A stretch of DNA of 64,000 bases. Source: Desulfovibrio fairfieldensis (GTDB lineage Bacteria > Desulfobacterota > Desulfovibrionia > Desulfovibrionales > Desulfovibrionaceae). This document shows positions 12-63,052 of this stretch, piece by piece; the first letter of the stretch is position 1; each line of letters opens with the position of its first letter. The stretch covers positions 3,376,501 to 3,440,500 of the forward strand of contig NZ_CP014229.1 in assembly GCF_001553605.1 (NCBI RefSeq), read 5' to 3'. Made by a program: the position numbers and the translations under genes. Under the pieces are notes generated by a model. That model worked only from the letters and a program-made list of their open reading frames with translations. It did not search any database and was not told where the DNA came from.

Positions 12-1067
12 ATGCCGTCCATTTACAGTCGCCGTCATTTTCTGCGGGCCGCGCTGCTGAGCGGCGGGGCTCTCACCGCCGCCACCCTGACGCCCGCCTT
101 GCTGCCGCTGGCCGCCAGGGCCGGTGGACTGTTGCCGGGCGGCGCGCCTGCGGAGCCGCTGCAGCAGACCAGCCTGTTCATGGGCACCATGGTCAGCATC
201 AGCGTGGCCCAGGTCGAGCCGGGCCGGGCCGAAGAAGGCATGGCGCGCGCGTTTGCCCTGGGCCGCCGCATGGCGGACGTATTCACCCGTTTTGACGCCT
301 CGTCGCCGGTGGGCGCGCTCAATGCCGACGGCGCGTTATCCGACACGCCGCCGGAGCTGAACGCGCTGTTGCAACGCGCCATGCGCGTGGGCCGCCTGAC
401 GGGCGGCGCCTTTGACGTGACCGTACTGCCTTTGTTGCGCCTGTTGGACGCCCACCGCAATCCCACAGGCAGCCTGCGCCTGGCCGAAGGCGAGTTGCGC
501 GAAACCCTGGAACTGGTGGGCGCGGAACATCTGGAAGCGAGCGGCAAGGCTTTGCGCTTTATGCGTTCCGGCATGGGTCTGACCCTGGACGGCATTGCCA
601 AGGGCCATATTGCCGAGGCCATGTCGCGTGAACTCGCGGCCGCCGGTTGCCCGGATCACTTGGTCAATGCCGGCGGCGACATGGTGGCGCGCGGCCGCAA
701 AGCTCCGGACGCGCCTTGGCGCGTGGCCGTGGAAGACCCGCAAAAGCGGGGCAAGTATCCCCAGGTGGTGGAACTGCCCGCGGGCGGGGCCATTGCCACG
801 TCCGGCGGCTATGAGGTTTTTTACGACGCCGCGCAAAGCCACAGCCATCTGGTCAGTCCGGCCACCGGCCAAAGCCCGGCCCTGGCCAGCGTGACCGTGA
901 CCGCGCCCGAGGGGCTCATGGCCGATGCCCTGGCCACGGCCCTGTCGGTCATGCCGCCGCGCGAAGCTCTGGCCCTGGCCGACGCCCTGCCCGGCTGCGC
1001 CTGCTGCCTGTTGCGCCGGGACGGGCTGGCGCGGGTATCCGGTCGCTGGCAGGGGCGGCCGGTCTAG
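12..1067 (+). CDS. apbE: FAD:protein FMN transferase, Tat-exported (ApbE family)
   Basis: ApbE proteins transfer FMN from FAD to Thr/Ser residues of exported or membrane flavoproteins such as RnfG, RnfD and NqrC. The 351-residue product starts with a twin-arginine signal (SRRHFLRAALLSGG, residues 6-19) and an alanine-rich hydrophobic stretch ending near residue 37, so it should act in the periplasm. Family motifs visible are LDGIAKGHIAE (about 193-203), NAGGDM (about 218-223), TSGGYEVF in the last third, and MADALATALSVM, whose Asp is the usual Mg ligand. Length is normal for the family. An AGGGAGG ribosome site precedes ATG 12. Its target flavoprotein is not in this window. The stop codon coincides with the left end of a repeat element, so the last residues may have been altered by that insertion. 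Confidence 0.93.
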   Translation: MPSIYSRRHFLRAALLSGGALTAATLTPALLPLAARAGGLLPGGAPAEPLQQTSLFMGTMVSISVAQVEPGRAEEGMARAFALGRRMADVFTRFDASSPVGALNADGALSDTPPELNALLQRAMRVGRLTGGAFDVTVLPLLRLLDAHRNPTGSLRLAEGELRETLELVGAEHLEASGKALRFMRSGMGLTLDGIAKGHIAEAMSRELAAAGCPDHLVNAGGDMVARGRKAPDAPWRVAVEDPQKRGKYPQVVELPAGGAIATSGGYEVFYDAAQSHSHLVSPATGQSPALASVTVTAPEGLMADALATALSVMPPREALALADALPGCACCLLRRDGLARVSGRWQGRPV

Positions 1068-1213
1068 GGCCTGTTGACACTATGCCTTTTTGCCCGCTCG
1101 CTACGTCAGATTTCACCTGCTTTTTCGGTCGAGTACCAAAAGAGTACACTCCCTCAAAACAGGCTTATCTTCCTTGCGGGCGAACAAAAATTCTATAGTG
1201 TCAACAGGCCCTA
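1065..1213. repeat. Long-hairpin repeat, family A, copy 1
   Basis: A 149-base element bounded by TA on each side. Its 17-base ends (GGGCCTGTTGACACTAT and its exact reverse complement) are perfect inverted repeats. The interior also pairs: TTTTTGCCCGC near 1086 with GCGGGCGAACAAAAA near 1180, and GAGTACC/AGAGTAC near 1131-1147 at the tip. The first three bases, TAG, are the stop codon of the preceding gene. Related copies lie at 14787-15035, 60603-60751 and, in divergent form, 29928-30029. Compensatory changes between copies suggest that the folded form matters. Confidence 0.85.
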
Positions 1214-14389: not shown

Positions 14390-14786
14390 CCTATTTGGCC
14401 TTTTTTGTCGCTGGCAGCGTCAAATTTCACGGCGCGGCTCGGTTATACGGGCGGCTTTTTGGCCGTTACAAGGCAGGACGTTGCGGCCAAAGGCAGCAAT
14501 GCCGCAGTCGGTGATTCGTCCGGGTAAAGGCTGTCGCTATCTGTATGCCGTTCACGGCAACAGCTTATAGCGCCGTCAGCGTGCCGCTTATTTTTCTTGC
14601 CAGCGGCAAAAAACTCAAATGTCGCAACCCCTTTTGCGCAAGATCTGCCGCAACGTCTGTTGTGGCATTTCTTGTTTCGGGCTTGGTTCACCTGCCGCCC
14701 TTTGCTTCAGCGGCGGATGAACGCGCAAATTGGGATGCTTCGATGCGTCTTGCCATAGGCACGTTATTTTGAGCAGGGCATGACTT
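14390..14786. other. Gene-free stretch downstream of dsrD
   Basis: About 400 bases with no convincing gene. A short T-run (CCTTTTTTG, around 14399) may help end the dsr transcript, but its hairpin is weak. The rest has many short GC palindromes (for instance GCCGTTCACGGC around 14547). Phrases such as GGCTGTCGCTATCTGTATG resemble the middle of the family B repeat at 61481-61540, so it may be a decayed copy. Confidence 0.4.
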
Positions 14787-15035
14787 TAGGGCCTGTTGAC
14801 ACTATGTTCTTTTGCCCGCTGGCTTTGTTGAACTTCGCCTTTTATTCCAGTCGAGTACCATAGCTCTGCTGTCCTCATCCGTAAGCAGCTTCGCCGCAAC
14901 GGCTGAGGCAAGAGTACACTCCTTTCATGCTTTAGCCGTTATGCGAGGAACGAGCATTACGGATAAAGACAGCAGCGATAAAAGGATCGTTCTCCTCGCC
15001 AGCGAACAAAATCCCAGCAGTGTCAACAGGCCCCA
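14787..15035. repeat. Long-hairpin repeat, family A, copy 2 (extended)
   Basis: Starts TAGGGCCTGTTGACACTAT and ends with GTGTCAACAGGCCC, as in copy 1, but is about 100 bases longer. The extra middle is itself a long imperfect hairpin: GCTGTCCTCATCCGTAA near 14870 pairs with TTACGGATAAAGACAGC near 14958, and CGCAACGGCTGAGGCA pairs with TGCTTTAGCCGTTATGCG. Mismatches are mainly G-T type. The right flank reads CA instead of TA. Confidence 0.8.
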
Positions 15036-15071
15036 GGGCAATCGGCCCGGTCAGGAATCCAGGAGGTGATC

Positions 15072-29360: not shown

Positions 29361-29930
29361 ATGGTCAAACCGTTTTATCAGGGCAAACTGGACACCTTCT
29401 GCGCCATTTACGCGGTGCTCAACGCTCTGCGCCTGACCCACGGCATCCGGGTGCTCAAGGCGCGGGACATTCTCAACGAAACCCTGCTGGCCCTGGCAGG
29501 CGCGCCCGAAGCCTTCAGGGCCGTGCTGGATCAGGAAACAGATTATCTCAATCTGGTGGACGGCATGCTGCGGGCGCAGAGCCGCGCCTTTCCCCTGGAG
29601 GTGCGCAGGCCTTTTGCCCCGGAGGAGCGGCCCACAGTGGACGAGCTCTGGCGGGTCTGCCGGGAATGGCTCGCGCCGGAGCGCGGCCGCGCGGTCATTT
29701 TCCGCTTTCTGCGCAGCCTGACCCCGGAGGGCCCGCCGGTGAATCGCCACTGGACCACCGCCGACCGCATGGACGATGAAATCCTGCACCTCTTTGATTG
29801 CAGCCATGAGGCCGAAGCCATTCTGAACATCCGCAAGGACAGTTTCGTCACCCGGCCCGAGGCCGTGAGCCAGGGCCGTCTGCTCTATATCCAGCCCGGC
29901 AGTCTGCGTCTGCTGCGTCTTCCGTTTTAA
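29361..29930 (+). CDS. Putative papain-fold cysteine peptidase-like protein, uncharacterised
   Basis: A 189-residue protein with no signal peptide. The N-terminus, PFYQGKLDTFCAIYAVLNAL (residues 4-23), has the arrangement of papain-like enzymes: an oxyanion Gln, then Cys at the head of a helix. A His follows in VNRHWTTADRM (about residue 128) and an Asp in ILHLFDCSHE (about residue 143), in the correct order for a Gln-Cys-His-Asp/Asn active site. I do not know a named family for it, so enzyme activity is inference. AATGCGCGGAGG-like sequence precedes ATG 29361. The stop codon TAA is the first three bases of a long-hairpin repeat. Divergent from panC. Confidence 0.7.
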   Translation: MVKPFYQGKLDTFCAIYAVLNALRLTHGIRVLKARDILNETLLALAGAPEAFRAVLDQETDYLNLVDGMLRAQSRAFPLEVRRPFAPEERPTVDELWRVCREWLAPERGRAVIFRFLRSLTPEGPPVNRHWTTADRMDDEILHLFDCSHEAEAILNIRKDSFVTRPEAVSQGRLLYIQPGSLRLLRLPF

Positions 29931-30029
29931 GGAAGCGCTGACTACCGGTCTTTTTGCCCTCTGCCCGCGTCAGGCCCGCTCCGTGGCCCTCGGCAAAGAA
30001 CAACATCCTCAGTAATCAGCACTTCCTTA
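29928..30029. repeat. Long-hairpin repeat, family A-related short copy
   Basis: A 102-base element bounded by TA. Ends TAAGGAAGCGCTGACTAC and GTAATCAGCACTTCCTTA pair along their length with two C/A positions, which become G-U pairs in a minus-strand transcript. The inner sequence CTTTTTGCCCTCTGCCCGCG is close to CTTTTTGCCCTCCTGCCGCG in the copy at 60603-60751, and GTCAG follows both. TAA of the preceding gene is its left end. It also lies directly after the minus-strand metE and may serve as its terminator. Confidence 0.7.
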
Positions 30030-40938: not shown

Positions 40939-41832
40939 CTAGCCGATGAGCTGCATGGCCATCTGCGGCATGCTGTTGGCCTGCGAAAGCATGGCCACAG
41001 CCGACTGGGTGAGGATCTGGTTGCGGACGAATGACGTCATTTCCGTGGCCACGTCCACGTCGGAAATGCGCGATTCAGCCGCCTGCAGGTTTTCGGACTG
41101 AGTGGTAAGGTTGGAAATGGTGTTTTCCAGACGGTTCTGCAAGGCGCCCAGATGCGCCCGGATCTTGTCCTTGGAGACCACGGCGTTGGTCAGGCCCACC
41201 AGAGCCTTCTGGGCCTGTTCCTGGGTGGAGACCGTACGGGCGTCGGCCGTGGTGCTGCTCGCGGTGGCCTGATTGCCCACACCCAGAGCCGAGGCGGTGC
41301 TCGTACCGATCTGGATGTAGTAATAGTCTTCCGCCGAGTCGTTGGCCGTGCCGAAGTGGATCTTCATCTTGCCGGTGGAGGTCATTCCCGCGCCGTCGTG
41401 CGAGCTACTGGACAGATTGCCGTTCAGCAGATGGATGCCGTTGAAGTCCGTGGAGTTGGCGATTCGGGTAATTTCCGAAGCCATGGCCTGATATTCGGAC
41501 TCAATCATCAAACGCTGGGTGGAATCGTAGGTGCCGGTAGCCGCCTGTTCGGCCAGTTCCTTCATGCGGGTCAGCTTTTCGTCGATGACGCCCAGGGCGC
41601 CGTCGGCGGTCTGGATGAGGGAAATGGCGTCGTTGGCGTTGCGCACGCCCTGTTGCAGAGCCGTGATGTCGGTACGCATCAGCTCGCGGATGGCCAGGCC
41701 GGCTGCGTCGTCAGCCGCGGAATTGACGCGCAGGCCCGTGGACAAGCGCTTGGTCGAGGTCTGCAAGTCGCTGTAGTGGCCGGTCAGGGTGTTGGCGACG
41801 TTGGTGGCCATTTGGTTGTGATTGATATACAT
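40939..41832 (-). CDS. Flagellin (copy 1)
   Basis: The 297-residue flagellin has the conserved D0/D1 ends: YINHNQMATNVANTLTGHYS at the N-terminus and RISDVDVATEMTSFVRNQIL then TQSAVAMLSQANSMPQMAMQ at the C-terminus. It has only a short variable middle (about residues 130-200). It is exported by the flagellar type III system and forms the filament. It differs from the second flagellin at only about two dozen of 297 positions, mostly in the middle. A GGAGG ribosome site precedes ATG 41832. A sigma28-like site and a sigma54-like site lie upstream. Confidence 0.97.
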   Translation of the reverse strand: MYINHNQMATNVANTLTGHYSDLQTSTKRLSTGLRVNSAADDAAGLAIRELMRTDITALQQGVRNANDAISLIQTADGALGVIDEKLTRMKELAEQAATGTYDSTQRLMIESEYQAMASEITRIANSTDFNGIHLLNGNLSSSSHDGAGMTSTGKMKIHFGTANDSAEDYYYIQIGTSTASALGVGNQATASSTTADARTVSTQEQAQKALVGLTNAVVSKDKIRAHLGALQNRLENTISNLTTQSENLQAAESRISDVDVATEMTSFVRNQILTQSAVAMLSQANSMPQMAMQLIG

Positions 41833-42718: not shown

Positions 42719-43612
42719 CTAGCCGATGAGCTGCATGGCCATCTGCTGCATGCTGTTGGCTTGCGACAGCATGGCCACCGACGACTGGGTAAGAATCTGG
42801 TTGCGGACGAACGACGTCATTTCCGTGGCCACGTCCACGTCGGAAATGCGCGATTCAGCCGACTGCAGATTCTCGGCTTGGGTGGTAAGGTTGGAAATGG
42901 TGTTTTCCAGGCGGTTCTGCAACGCGCCCAGATGCGCCCGGATCTTGTCCTTGGAGACCACGGCGTTGGTCAGGCCCAGCAGAGCCTTCTGGGCCTGTTC
43001 CTGGGTGGAGACCGTACGGGCGTCGGCTGTGGTGCTGCTGGCGGTCGCCTGATTGCCCACACCCAGGGCCGAGGCGGTGCTCGCGCCGATCTGAATGTAG
43101 TAATAGTCTTCCGCCGAGTCGTTGGCCGTGCCGAAGTGCACCTTCAGCTTGCCGGTGGCGCTGAGAGCCGCGCCGCTGTGCGTGCTGCCGGACAGATTGC
43201 CGTTCAGCAGATGGATGCCGTTGAAGTCCGTGGCATTGGCGATTCGGGTGATTTCCGAAGCCATGGCCTGATATTCGGACTCAATCATCAAACGCTGGGT
43301 GGAATCGTAGGTGCCGGTAGCCGCCTGTTCGGCCAGTTCCTTCATGCGGGTCAGCTTTTCGTCGATGACGCCCAAGGCGCCGTCGGCGGTCTGGATGAGG
43401 GAAATGGCGTCGTTGGCGTTGCGCACGCCCTGTTGCAGAGCCGTGATGTCGGTGCGCATCAGCTCGCGGATGGCCAGGCCGGCGGCGTCGTCAGCCGCGG
43501 AATTGACGCGCAGGCCCGTGGACAGGCGCTTGGTTGAGGTTTGCAGATTTCCGTAATGGGATGTGAGGGTGTTGGCCACGTTGGAGGCCATCTGGTTATG
43601 ATTGATATACAT
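42719..43612 (-). CDS. Flagellin (copy 2)
   Basis: A 297-residue flagellin, nearly identical to copy 1, with the same conserved ends (YINHNQMASNVANTLTSHYG; SRISDVDVATEMTSFVRNQI). Differences concentrate in residues 130-165 (GSTHSGAALSATGKLKVHFG here) and near the C-terminus (SMQQMAM instead of SMPQMAM). ATG 43612 has GGAGG five bases upstream; an in-frame ATG 12 bases earlier overlaps that site. It has its own terminator and a sigma28-like promoter, so each copy can be expressed alone. The near-identity in the DNA makes the pair a substrate for recombination. Confidence 0.97.
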   Translation of the reverse strand: MYINHNQMASNVANTLTSHYGNLQTSTKRLSTGLRVNSAADDAAGLAIRELMRTDITALQQGVRNANDAISLIQTADGALGVIDEKLTRMKELAEQAATGTYDSTQRLMIESEYQAMASEITRIANATDFNGIHLLNGNLSGSTHSGAALSATGKLKVHFGTANDSAEDYYYIQIGASTASALGVGNQATASSTTADARTVSTQEQAQKALLGLTNAVVSKDKIRAHLGALQNRLENTISNLTTQAENLQSAESRISDVDVATEMTSFVRNQILTQSSVAMLSQANSMQQMAMQLIG

Positions 43613-59716: not shown

Positions 59717-59782
59717 TATGGAGAAAACCCCCCGCTAGGCGGGGGGTTCTAAAAAGCTTACAGCTTTGCCCATGTCAGTAAA

Positions 59783-59847
59783 ACTCCTTTTGATTTGTTA
59801 AAAAGTCTCGCGGTCTGGCAACTGCGAGTCAACAAATCAAAAGGAGG
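59783..59847 (+). promoter_or_regulatory. Hairpin covering the tnpA ribosome site
   Basis: CTCCTTTTGATTTGTT (from 59784) is the exact complement of AACAAATCAAAAGGAG (59831-59846), which includes the tnpA ribosome site. The pairing would hide the site. A second small hairpin, CTCGC/GCGAG, lies in the loop. IS200 is known to repress its transposase by such a 5' leader structure. Confidence 0.8.
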
Positions 59848-59852
59848 TCACG

Positions 59853-60311
59853 ATGGGTGACGCCAAAAGTTTAGCCCACACAAGGTGGAACTGCAAATAT
59901 CACATTGTTTTTGCGCCTAAATATCGCCGCCAGGTGTTCTATGGTGAAAAGAAGCGCGCCATTGGCGAAATTCTGCGCAAGTTGTGCGAATGGAAGGATG
60001 TAAAAATAGTGGAGGCAGAATGTTGCCCAGACCACATCCACATGCTGCTTGAGATTCCCCCCAAAATGAGTGTGTCGAGTTTTATGGGCTATCTGAAGGG
60101 TAAGAGTAGTCTCATGATCTATGAACAATTTGGGGATTTGAAGTTCAAATACCGCAATCGAGAATTTTGGTGCCGTGGGTATTACGTCGATACAGTGGGC
60201 AAGAATAAGGCCAAGATTCAGGATTACATCAAGCATCAGCTGGAGTCGGATAAACTTGGCGATCAGTTGAGCCTACCCTACCCAAGGAGCCCGTTTACGG
60301 GCCGCAAGTAA
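59853..60311 (+). CDS. tnpA: IS200-type Y1 transposase TnpA
   Basis: A 152-residue HUH single-strand transposase. It starts with LAHTRWNCKYHIVFAPKYRR, carries the HUH motif in CCPDHIHMLLEIPPKMSV (about residues 60-62 for His-Ile-His), and has the catalytic Tyr in FWCRGYYVDTVGKNK (about residue 107). Length is normal and no stop interrupts it, so it may be active. It cuts and joins the element as single-stranded DNA using the end hairpins. AAGGAGG lies six bases upstream but is sequestered by an inverted repeat. Confidence 0.95.
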   Translation: MGDAKSLAHTRWNCKYHIVFAPKYRRQVFYGEKKRAIGEILRKLCEWKDVKIVEAECCPDHIHMLLEIPPKMSVSSFMGYLKGKSSLMIYEQFGDLKFKYRNREFWCRGYYVDTVGKNKAKIQDYIKHQLESDKLGDQLSLPYPRSPFTGRK

Positions 60312-60602: not shown

Positions 60603-60751
60603 TAGGGCCTGTTAACGCTATGCCTTTTTGCCCTCCTGCCGCGTCAGATTTCACCTGCTTTTTCGGTCGAGTACCAGAAGAGTACACTCCCTCAAAGCAG
60701 GTTTATCTTCCTTGCAGGCGAACAAAAATTCTATGGCGTTAGCAGGCCCTA
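60603..60751. repeat. Long-hairpin repeat, family A, copy 3
   Basis: 149 bases, the same length as copy 1, bounded by TA. Ends GGGCCTGTTAACGCTAT and ATGGCGTTAGCAGGCCC. Compared with copy 1, two base pairs changed on both sides (G-C to A-T and A-T to G-C) and two became G-T pairs, so pairing is kept. The interior (TCAGATTTCACCTGCTTTTT, GTCGAGTACC, AGAGTACACTCCCTCAAA) is almost identical to copy 1. Confidence 0.87.
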
Positions 60752-61362: not shown

Positions 61363-61690
61363 GAGCAACTCACGATTGAAATGAGTGAATTACTCTGGTG
61401 GGCGCGTGAGCGGGCACCCGCGCCCAAGTGCAAGAAAGCGACCGGAGGCGGCGCCGTGCCCGTTAGGCCACGAAGGGCTTACGGGCATCGACAGCCGCGC
61501 TAAACCGCGTTTTAGCATTGCTGTCGGTATCCGTATGACTCGAAGACTCGCCAACGGCTACCGCTTCCGCGGCACGCGGGCGGCGTACCGTTTGAAATGT
61601 GCAATATATCAAACGCAAAATACTCTTGAACCGTCAGCGCGTCTCATGCGCGAATTGCTCCGCAGGGCTTTGCCTGCAACTCCCGTCATG
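61363..61690 (+). repeat. Hairpin-rich repeat family B
   Basis: Head hairpin GAGCAACTCAC/GTGAATTACTC (61363-61395), then GGGCGCG/CGCGCCC. A nested stem covers 61489-61525, where CGACAGC encloses GCTAAA..TTTAGC and is closed by GCTGTCG. Tail hairpin TTTGAAAT..ATATCAAA lies near 61590. Bases 61481-61532 are identical to 62945-62996. No gene is supported in 61173-61972; the rest of this gap appears featureless. Confidence 0.75.
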
Positions 61691-62864: not shown

Positions 62865-63052
62865 GAGCAATTCACGGTTGAAAGGAGTGAATTGCTCCGG
62901 CGGCCGCGTGAGTTGACTCCGCGCCCGTTAGCCCAAAAGCGCTTACGGGCATCGACAGCCGCGCTAAACCGCGTTTTAGCATTGCTGTCGGTATCCCTAC
63001 GGCTCCAAGACCCGCCAACGGCTTCCGCGGCACGCGGGCGGCGTAGAGTTTG
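62865..63052 (+). repeat. Hairpin-rich repeat family B, second copy
   Basis: Head hairpin GAGCAATTCAC/GTGAATTGCTC (62865-62897) is perfect. The middle shares a 52-base identity with 61481-61532, then GCCAACGGC, TTCCGCGGCACGCGGGCGGC and GTAGAGTTTG; the tail hairpin is cut short. It fills the gap upstream of the ubiX-like gene. Confidence 0.75.

Follow-up and report, generated by a model that had tools for sequence, protein, structure and literature searches.

The long hairpins bounded by TA that recur along this stretch of the Desulfovibrio fairfieldensis genome raise two questions, namely how they move and whether their folding has been selected. The window, by which is meant the whole stretch of DNA analysed (64,000 nt), comes from a genome consisting of one 3.70-Mb contig. 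In the reading which we regard as probable, the repeats belong to an unnamed superfamily of IS5-type MITEs, moved in trans by IS5 transposases and possessing a folded core that is selected in a strand-specific manner. The mobility part of this reading is well supported for the window genome; transposition itself would proceed through an IS5 enzyme, and the fold of the core would serve a function.

Copies in the window and the genome

Five hairpins were located in the window, all of them in a single orientation (+) according to the covariance model (Table 1). Copies 1 and 3, which the original prediction had reported as equal in length, are each 149 nt long and 90% identical; the longer copy with nested arms is likewise real, and has counterparts of 249–269 nt elsewhere in the window genome. 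The covariance-model match to the remnant spans nucleotides 29945–30017. RNA folding of both 149-nt copies, on either strand, gave z-scores of −8.2 to −12.2 and that of the long copy (14787–15037, + strand) a z-score of −10.3; no shuffle of the 149-nt copies or of the long copy folded as well as the real sequence.

Table 1. Positions of the hairpin elements and their parts in the window.
Feature	Position	Strand	Basis
Copy 1, complete 149-nt element	1065..1213	− (better-folding CAAGGAAG strand)	
Copy 1, left terminal arm (inverted repeat), target TA first	1065..1084	+	Arm comparison
Copy 1, right terminal arm (inverted repeat), target TA last	1194..1213	+	Arm comparison
Copy 1, internal loop ACGTCAG (relatives commonly TGCGTCAG; other strand CTGACGCA)	1103..1109	+	
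Copy 1, hairpin tip GGTCGAGTAC...GAGTACACTCCC, two 2-nt bulges	1127..1153	+	
Copy 1, internal loop CTTCCTTG (folded strand: CAAGGAAG)	1169..1176	+	
Divergent longer copy	14396..14624	+	Covariance-model match coordinates
Long copy, extra insert within hairpin, nested arms	14787..15035	+	Sequence, fold, covariance model
Remnant with long arms, lacking upper stem and tip (deleted)	29928..30029	+	Outer limits by eye
Copy 3, complete 149-nt element	60603..60751	− (better-folding strand)	

The terminal arms of copy 1 had been described as perfectly paired over 17 bases; taken over 20 positions, the left arm (TAGGGCCTGTTGACACTATG) pairs with the right arm at 19, the innermost being a G.T. Comparison of the arms of copy 3 bore out the changes that had been described, G to A and A to G in the left arm both being compensated in the right, where two further changes give T.G pairs.

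BLAST with copy 1 recovered 40 full-length copies from the genome at 89–100% identity (40 scored out of 90 candidates), and covariance model R1, which was used to score 150 of 947 candidates, gave at least 138 matches at E ≤ 0.01; the further copies which such a search was expected to reveal were thus found. The 30 copies displayed fall mainly into two subfamilies, a few resembling copy 1 and 24 being of a second kind (L006–L025 and L027–L030), nearly identical among themselves. Copy 3 is of the second kind and departs from its common form, as judged by eye, at four places in the right arm, two of which restore pairing and two of which give T.G. In most copies of the second subfamily the arms (left GGGCCTGTTAACGC, right GTGTTAACAGACCC) contain a C.A mismatch besides a G.T, so that the terminal arms are here not always pairing.

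Other features of the sequence were recorded alongside. The TA-G of copy 1 (1065–1067) is the stop codon of an ORF ending at nucleotide 1067. A second repeat pair, 92% identical, lies at 61473–61564 and 62937–63028 of the window; stretches resembling ATCCGTAAG...AACGGCT, tied to this pair by eye, are also present within the long hairpin copies and next to elements at other Desulfovibrio loci. A 300-nt duplication (40939–41238 and 42719–43018; 94% identity, 1780 nt apart) sits within neighbouring minus-strand ORFs. At L045/L330 (G014:C1:14628–15362) five elements stand in tandem with a 152-nt period, other copies being dispersed.

The folded core and its strand

The fold was studied in alignment A1, which comprises 39 diverse core sequences, all with the exact tip pattern; as the tip was the search pattern, its invariance is by construction. 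Twenty locus names were listed for exclusion from 165 tip-bearing sequences, namely chance hits, loci from outside the Desulfovibrionaceae, and L052, L109, L071, L041 and L050, in which one side is truncated or replaced. The remaining 145 yielded 44 representatives, from which L180, L039, L103 and L083 and then one more were removed; the exclusions favour intact structures.

Covariation was judged by counts against shuffles and slid-arm controls. Changes on both sides were present at 22 of the 23 non-tip pairs, and 86.7% of the cells in the alignment are paired as against 38–53% with one arm slid, a control that retains the kinship among the sequences. The contrasts with shuffles, which kinship inflates, were a covariation score of 0.463 vs 0.156 (reached by 0 of 500 shuffles) and, as a weaker measure, the number of pairs with any double change, which was 24 of 31 vs an average of 18.9 in shuffles (3 of 500 attained 24). 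The mean frequency of the majority base is 0.90 in loop columns and 0.62 in stem columns; among the ten loop columns eight reach 0.85 or more, the other two being variable (0.72 and 0.62). Between element families the stems diverge yet remain paired. A selected fold is supported by this covariation and by the conserved loops. The claim that pairing is kept by double changes stands for the internal stems, but the terminal-arm argument first offered for it is weak, since both ends must fit one transposase and their compensation needs no folding. The case for folding rests on the internal stems and loops, of which the original argument made no use.

The better-folding strand, CAAGGAAG...CTGACGCAG, is the minus strand of the window copies. 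It was the more stable in all 39 core sequences and in 69 of 80 wider elements, a set found with R1 that includes 37 elements from 19 genomes outside the genus; that all 80 fit R1 follows from their having been chosen by it and is no test. With G.U forbidden this strand still folded better in 39/39 and 76/80, hence the difference is owed more to the loops than to wobble pairing. In our reading the loops of the CAAGGAAG strand are purine-rich and can form G.A, where the opposite strand has C.T. The identity of the folded strand is fairly clear. Selection on a folded molecule, as originally proposed, agrees with the paired changes and conserved loops; that molecule may be RNA or single-stranded DNA.

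A core that works as RNA, with elements folding where they have inserted in transcribed regions and the CAAGGAAG-strand transcript controlling the processing or stability of neighbouring mRNA, is an alternative to be kept in mind, and on balance an improbable one. The minus strand of copy 1 forms a long RNA hairpin (z about −12), the more stable strand is the CAAGGAAG strand in the proportion given above (69/80), and a review (PMC2229807) provides a precedent in the control proposed for ERIC and Neisseria elements. At two stem columns G.U is the commonest pair on this strand (15/39 and 19/39), the rest being mostly Watson-Crick. There is, however, no excess of wobble elsewhere in the core: the other helices of the CAAGGAAG strand contained G.U 15 vs A.C 20 times in A1 and 42 vs 66 times in the wider set, against G.U 8 vs A.C 2 in the tRNA acceptor stems of the same loci, a small sample. 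The orientation of flanking genes is neutral as well, 117 of 137 loci being distributed without preference (++30, −−33, −+29, +−25). The remaining 20 loci lie inside ORFs as delimited by a crude caller; 16 of these have the TGCGTCAG strand as sense strand, which, if real, would put the strand opposite to CAAGGAAG in the transcript. In Rfam no bacterial family came near threshold, and the matches, all far below gathering scores, were to microRNA hairpins, a Streptococcus sRNA and an lncRNA exon. An end-to-end alignment of the arms (60 representatives, model strand) had given A.C 28 vs G.T 7, seemingly a sign of minus-strand RNA; the per-column count in the core helices was A.C 15 vs G.T 20, the former figures having come from other positions, of which the two stem columns above (C.A 15/39 and 19/39) are examples.

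Template-switch repair of inverted repeats also yields double changes without selection. The elements might on this basis be ordinary IS5 MITEs with no selection on the fold, whose inherited long inverted repeat stays symmetric through template switching during replication and whose core is a family resemblance, an explanation that we consider unlikely. It would account for double changes accompanied by few one-sided ones, as copying of one arm from the other would give, for terminal arms that are transposase sites, and for the 40 copies at 89–100% identity, which amount to recent ordinary spread. Copying of arms, though, would erase asymmetric loops, yet these are the better conserved part of the core in A1. 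Moreover, elements outside the genus show these loops again, with other stems and tips: none of the 37 elements has the Desulfovibrio tip, GGAATA being found instead in 31, yet CAAGG is kept in 35 and TGACG in 30.

Ends, target site and orientation

The ends of the element matched the window genome at 98 places with up to two mismatches, the reversed-pattern control giving none, and for 38 of 47 forward ends a partner was present at a span of 147–148 nt (149–150 nt with the outer bases). TA occurs at both ends of 27 of the 30 displayed copies (25 by script and two by eye; three are without), and the flanks of 24 of the 30 define a symmetric target, roughly GCNY-TA-RNGC. A 249-bp and a 149-bp copy abut (2926621 and 2926868) with one TA common to both. 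An empty site was sought in relatives G018 and G024: on the left, the TAG with which the upstream gene stops is aligned at the point where the element would start and the element is absent, but the right-hand flank has diverged, leaving the site clean on one side only. The description as a MITE-like element with TA ends, inserting at TA, is upheld by the end counts, the nested pair and the target consensus. The elements are multiple and dispersed, have no transposase inside (149 nt being too short for one), are accompanied by a TA target duplication, and have terminal inverted repeats in common with an IS5-family element of the window genome.

The latter element (G000:C1:2825669–2826495), found as an end pair spanning 825 nt, measures 827 bp with the outer bases and has the ends TAGGACCTGTTAACACTA/TAGTGTTAACAGGCCATA. 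It encodes a transposase in two overlapping frames with matches to PF13340, PF01609 and NF033580. Because their ends match this element in the same genome, the repeats are taken for MITEs of the IS5 type and not of the IS630 type. G024 has an 826-bp stretch in which IS5_3 matches lie, and its ends (TAGGGCCTGTTCACGCTA/TAGGGCCTGTTAACACTT) are near-identical to those of the window elements. Other IS5 ends of Desulfovibrio, TAGATAGTGTCGTCA and TAGGGTGTGTCGTCA, resemble other arm families only (the survey script, which required TA-ended repeats, found such ends at 10 of 30 loci); an arm family of this type in the window genome is exemplified by TAGAGGGTGTCGTCATGAG. In more distant Desulfobacterota the elements end in GAGACCTTTGCAAAACG or close variants, a wide class. 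These ends begin with GAGACCTTTGCAAAA, listed in PMC4596501 as the terminus of the IS5 element ISNme1.

Matches to IS5_3 (NF033580) were present in 13 of 29 carrier genomes, the rows for G029 and G089 being identical and possibly one genome. The model search over these 29 found no IS5_3 transposase in G001, G005, G058 or G087 (42 exact tips), which calls for other mobilisers, or for loss, in carriers of this sort. L438, a possible insertion sequence with wide-class ends, had no transposase visible in the stretch fetched. Two further loci were recorded beside these: L442 (G165:C3:33790–33912) is a short element with the same IS5-like ends and an interior lacking the core motifs, showing that such ends also occur apart from the folded core, and L439 (G453:C89:3100–4300) has, between two stretches with a common element end, two open frames that resemble a toxin-antitoxin pair of the HigBA type.

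Orientation was analysed with the GC-skew-positive strand as reference, and follows replication in two of the three genomes tested. In the window genome the TGCGTCAG strand lies on that strand at 78 of 107 thinned loci, with replichore limits (1.5 and 3.25 Mb) that were set after sparse skew samples and which the samples at 0.2 Mb (slightly) and at 3.6 Mb do not fit. In G003, at whose contig start the frames look like dnaA, dnaN, gyrB and gyrA, the count was 15/15 thinned (22 listed of 41 matches). G058 gave 71/121, or 55/94 thinned, which is not significant (121 listed of 135 matches); G416, with 7 listed of 143 matches, was left out. In the window genome the 37 best-scoring copies, mostly recent, gave 27/37 and the rest 69/101. 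Among 30 of its copies, the co-oriented ones gave ++10, −−7, +−3 and −+3, and flanking-gene direction offers no obvious account of the bias. A symmetric target leaves the asymmetric core as its expected source: either insertion at forks may have a polarity, or copies whose stronger hairpin falls on the template of the lagging strand may be lost.

In the IS5 reading, which we prefer, the repeats would be non-autonomous MITEs that IS5-family transposases mobilise in trans, the enzyme acting on the terminal inverted repeats and the element being inserted at TA within a symmetric target. The hairpin core would be retained because the CAAGGAAG strand has a use in its single-stranded state, most probably as the DNA that replication forks expose. 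It may assist in strand choice, in synapsis of the paired ends or in tolerance by the replication machinery, and an RNA role is also conceivable. A search for a core-binding protein, directed at Y1_Tnp and IS5_3, found none.

That the repeats are REP/REPIN-like elements, mobilised as folded single-stranded DNA by a RAYT tyrosine transposase, is very unlikely. REPINs are, as outlined in PMC3116915, hairpin replicative units with compensatory changes, as are the elements here, and the replication polarity would suit them. The elements, however, have a TA target, ends of TAGGG...CCCTA or close variants that match IS5, and no GTAG tag, and Y1_Tnp (PF01797) was not found in 12 of 27 genus carriers, eight of these 12 being at least 90% complete, nor in G079, G086, G087, G088 and G089. 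RAYT as a general mobiliser was rejected by this search over 66 genomes. The window genome does have 13 Y1_Tnp matches, ten of which have an identical score; within the window an IS200-type (Y1_Tnp) gene occupies 59853–60311, with a member of the STnc490 RNA family just upstream (59726–59843). An IS630/Tc1-type MITE, suggested originally by the TA ends and insertion at TA, is more improbable still and is not supported, the same ends being found on an IS5-family element of the same genome.

Distribution and relation to known repeats

Among 395 genomes sampled across the phylum, R1 matched 75, belonging to 47 of 245 genera, at most nine candidates being scored per genome and the E-values being rough. 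A scan of public genomes for the tip pattern gave, among the matches listed, mostly Desulfovibrionaceae and a few contigs of Lentisphaerae, Verrucomicrobiota, Bacteroidales and Bdellovibrionales; some single hits were taken for chance. Copies from other phyla that the tip pattern had picked out reached 31.7–43.6 bits (L166 over the tip region only) vs 13.6–25.5 for presumed chance hits, which is suggestive of common descent and not proof of it. In the matched genomes the core often carries different IS5-like ends and a different tip. Copy 3 had no match among phages and plasmids in distant mode at E ≤ 1e-5. Two IMG/VR hits (L179 and L180) were taken, by eye, for chance matches in coding sequence, and L181 is a real element on a contig labelled viral.

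A bolder proposal, tentative and in our estimate doubtful, is that of an ancient folded nucleic-acid module, read on the CAAGGAAG strand with G.A pairs in tandem, which would have persisted across the Desulfobacterota and perhaps the Lentisphaerae, Verrucomicrobiota, Bacteroidales and Bdellovibrionales, exchanging its ends for those of the resident IS5 and spreading or surviving single-stranded at forks. If this is true, structure and not the ends would define such a mobile module.

Bacterial MITEs are usually viewed as leftovers and are defined by their ends. Here the ends vary by lineage and the interior fold is kept, which inverts that view. The covariance model moreover brings together a large repeat class without a match in Rfam, counting at least 138 copies in one genome and present in 47 of the 245 genera sampled. 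Searches of open-licence literature gave nothing relevant on a described family of such elements, an absence that is not proof, and a query with the tip letters returned, by title and start of abstract, only unrelated papers.

Among known systems the nearest in their ends are BrickBuilt and MITEPgRS of Porphyromonas gingivalis and ATR of Neisseria meningitidis, which in the relevant sections of PMC4596501 are likewise non-coding and multi-copy with IS5-like ends; ISNme1 is there proposed as the parent of ATR. Unlike the window elements, BrickBuilt has an interior of 23-nt direct repeats, and a phylum-wide covarying core such as that found here is not described for IS5-family MITEs in those sections (PMC4596501). 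The CGTC-tagged REPs of Di Nocera (2013) have, according to the portion of that paper dealing with their structure, a CGTC motif adjoining a stem, as here; they are of 20–40 bp with stems of 8–9 bp and terminal CGTC, whereas in the present elements CGTC is internal to a 149-nt hairpin (PMC3733652). In architecture, as the summary in a review presents it, the closest parallels are ERIC/IRU, Correia/NEMIS and RUP, which are from other hosts and, like the elements here, measure about 100–155 bp, have TA termini, form an end-to-end stem-loop and reach high copy number (PMC2229807). RUP is tied to IS630-Spn1. If the fold is selected, a question familiar from ERIC becomes testable, namely whether the hairpins serve the element, in mobility or replication, or the host, in RNA control.
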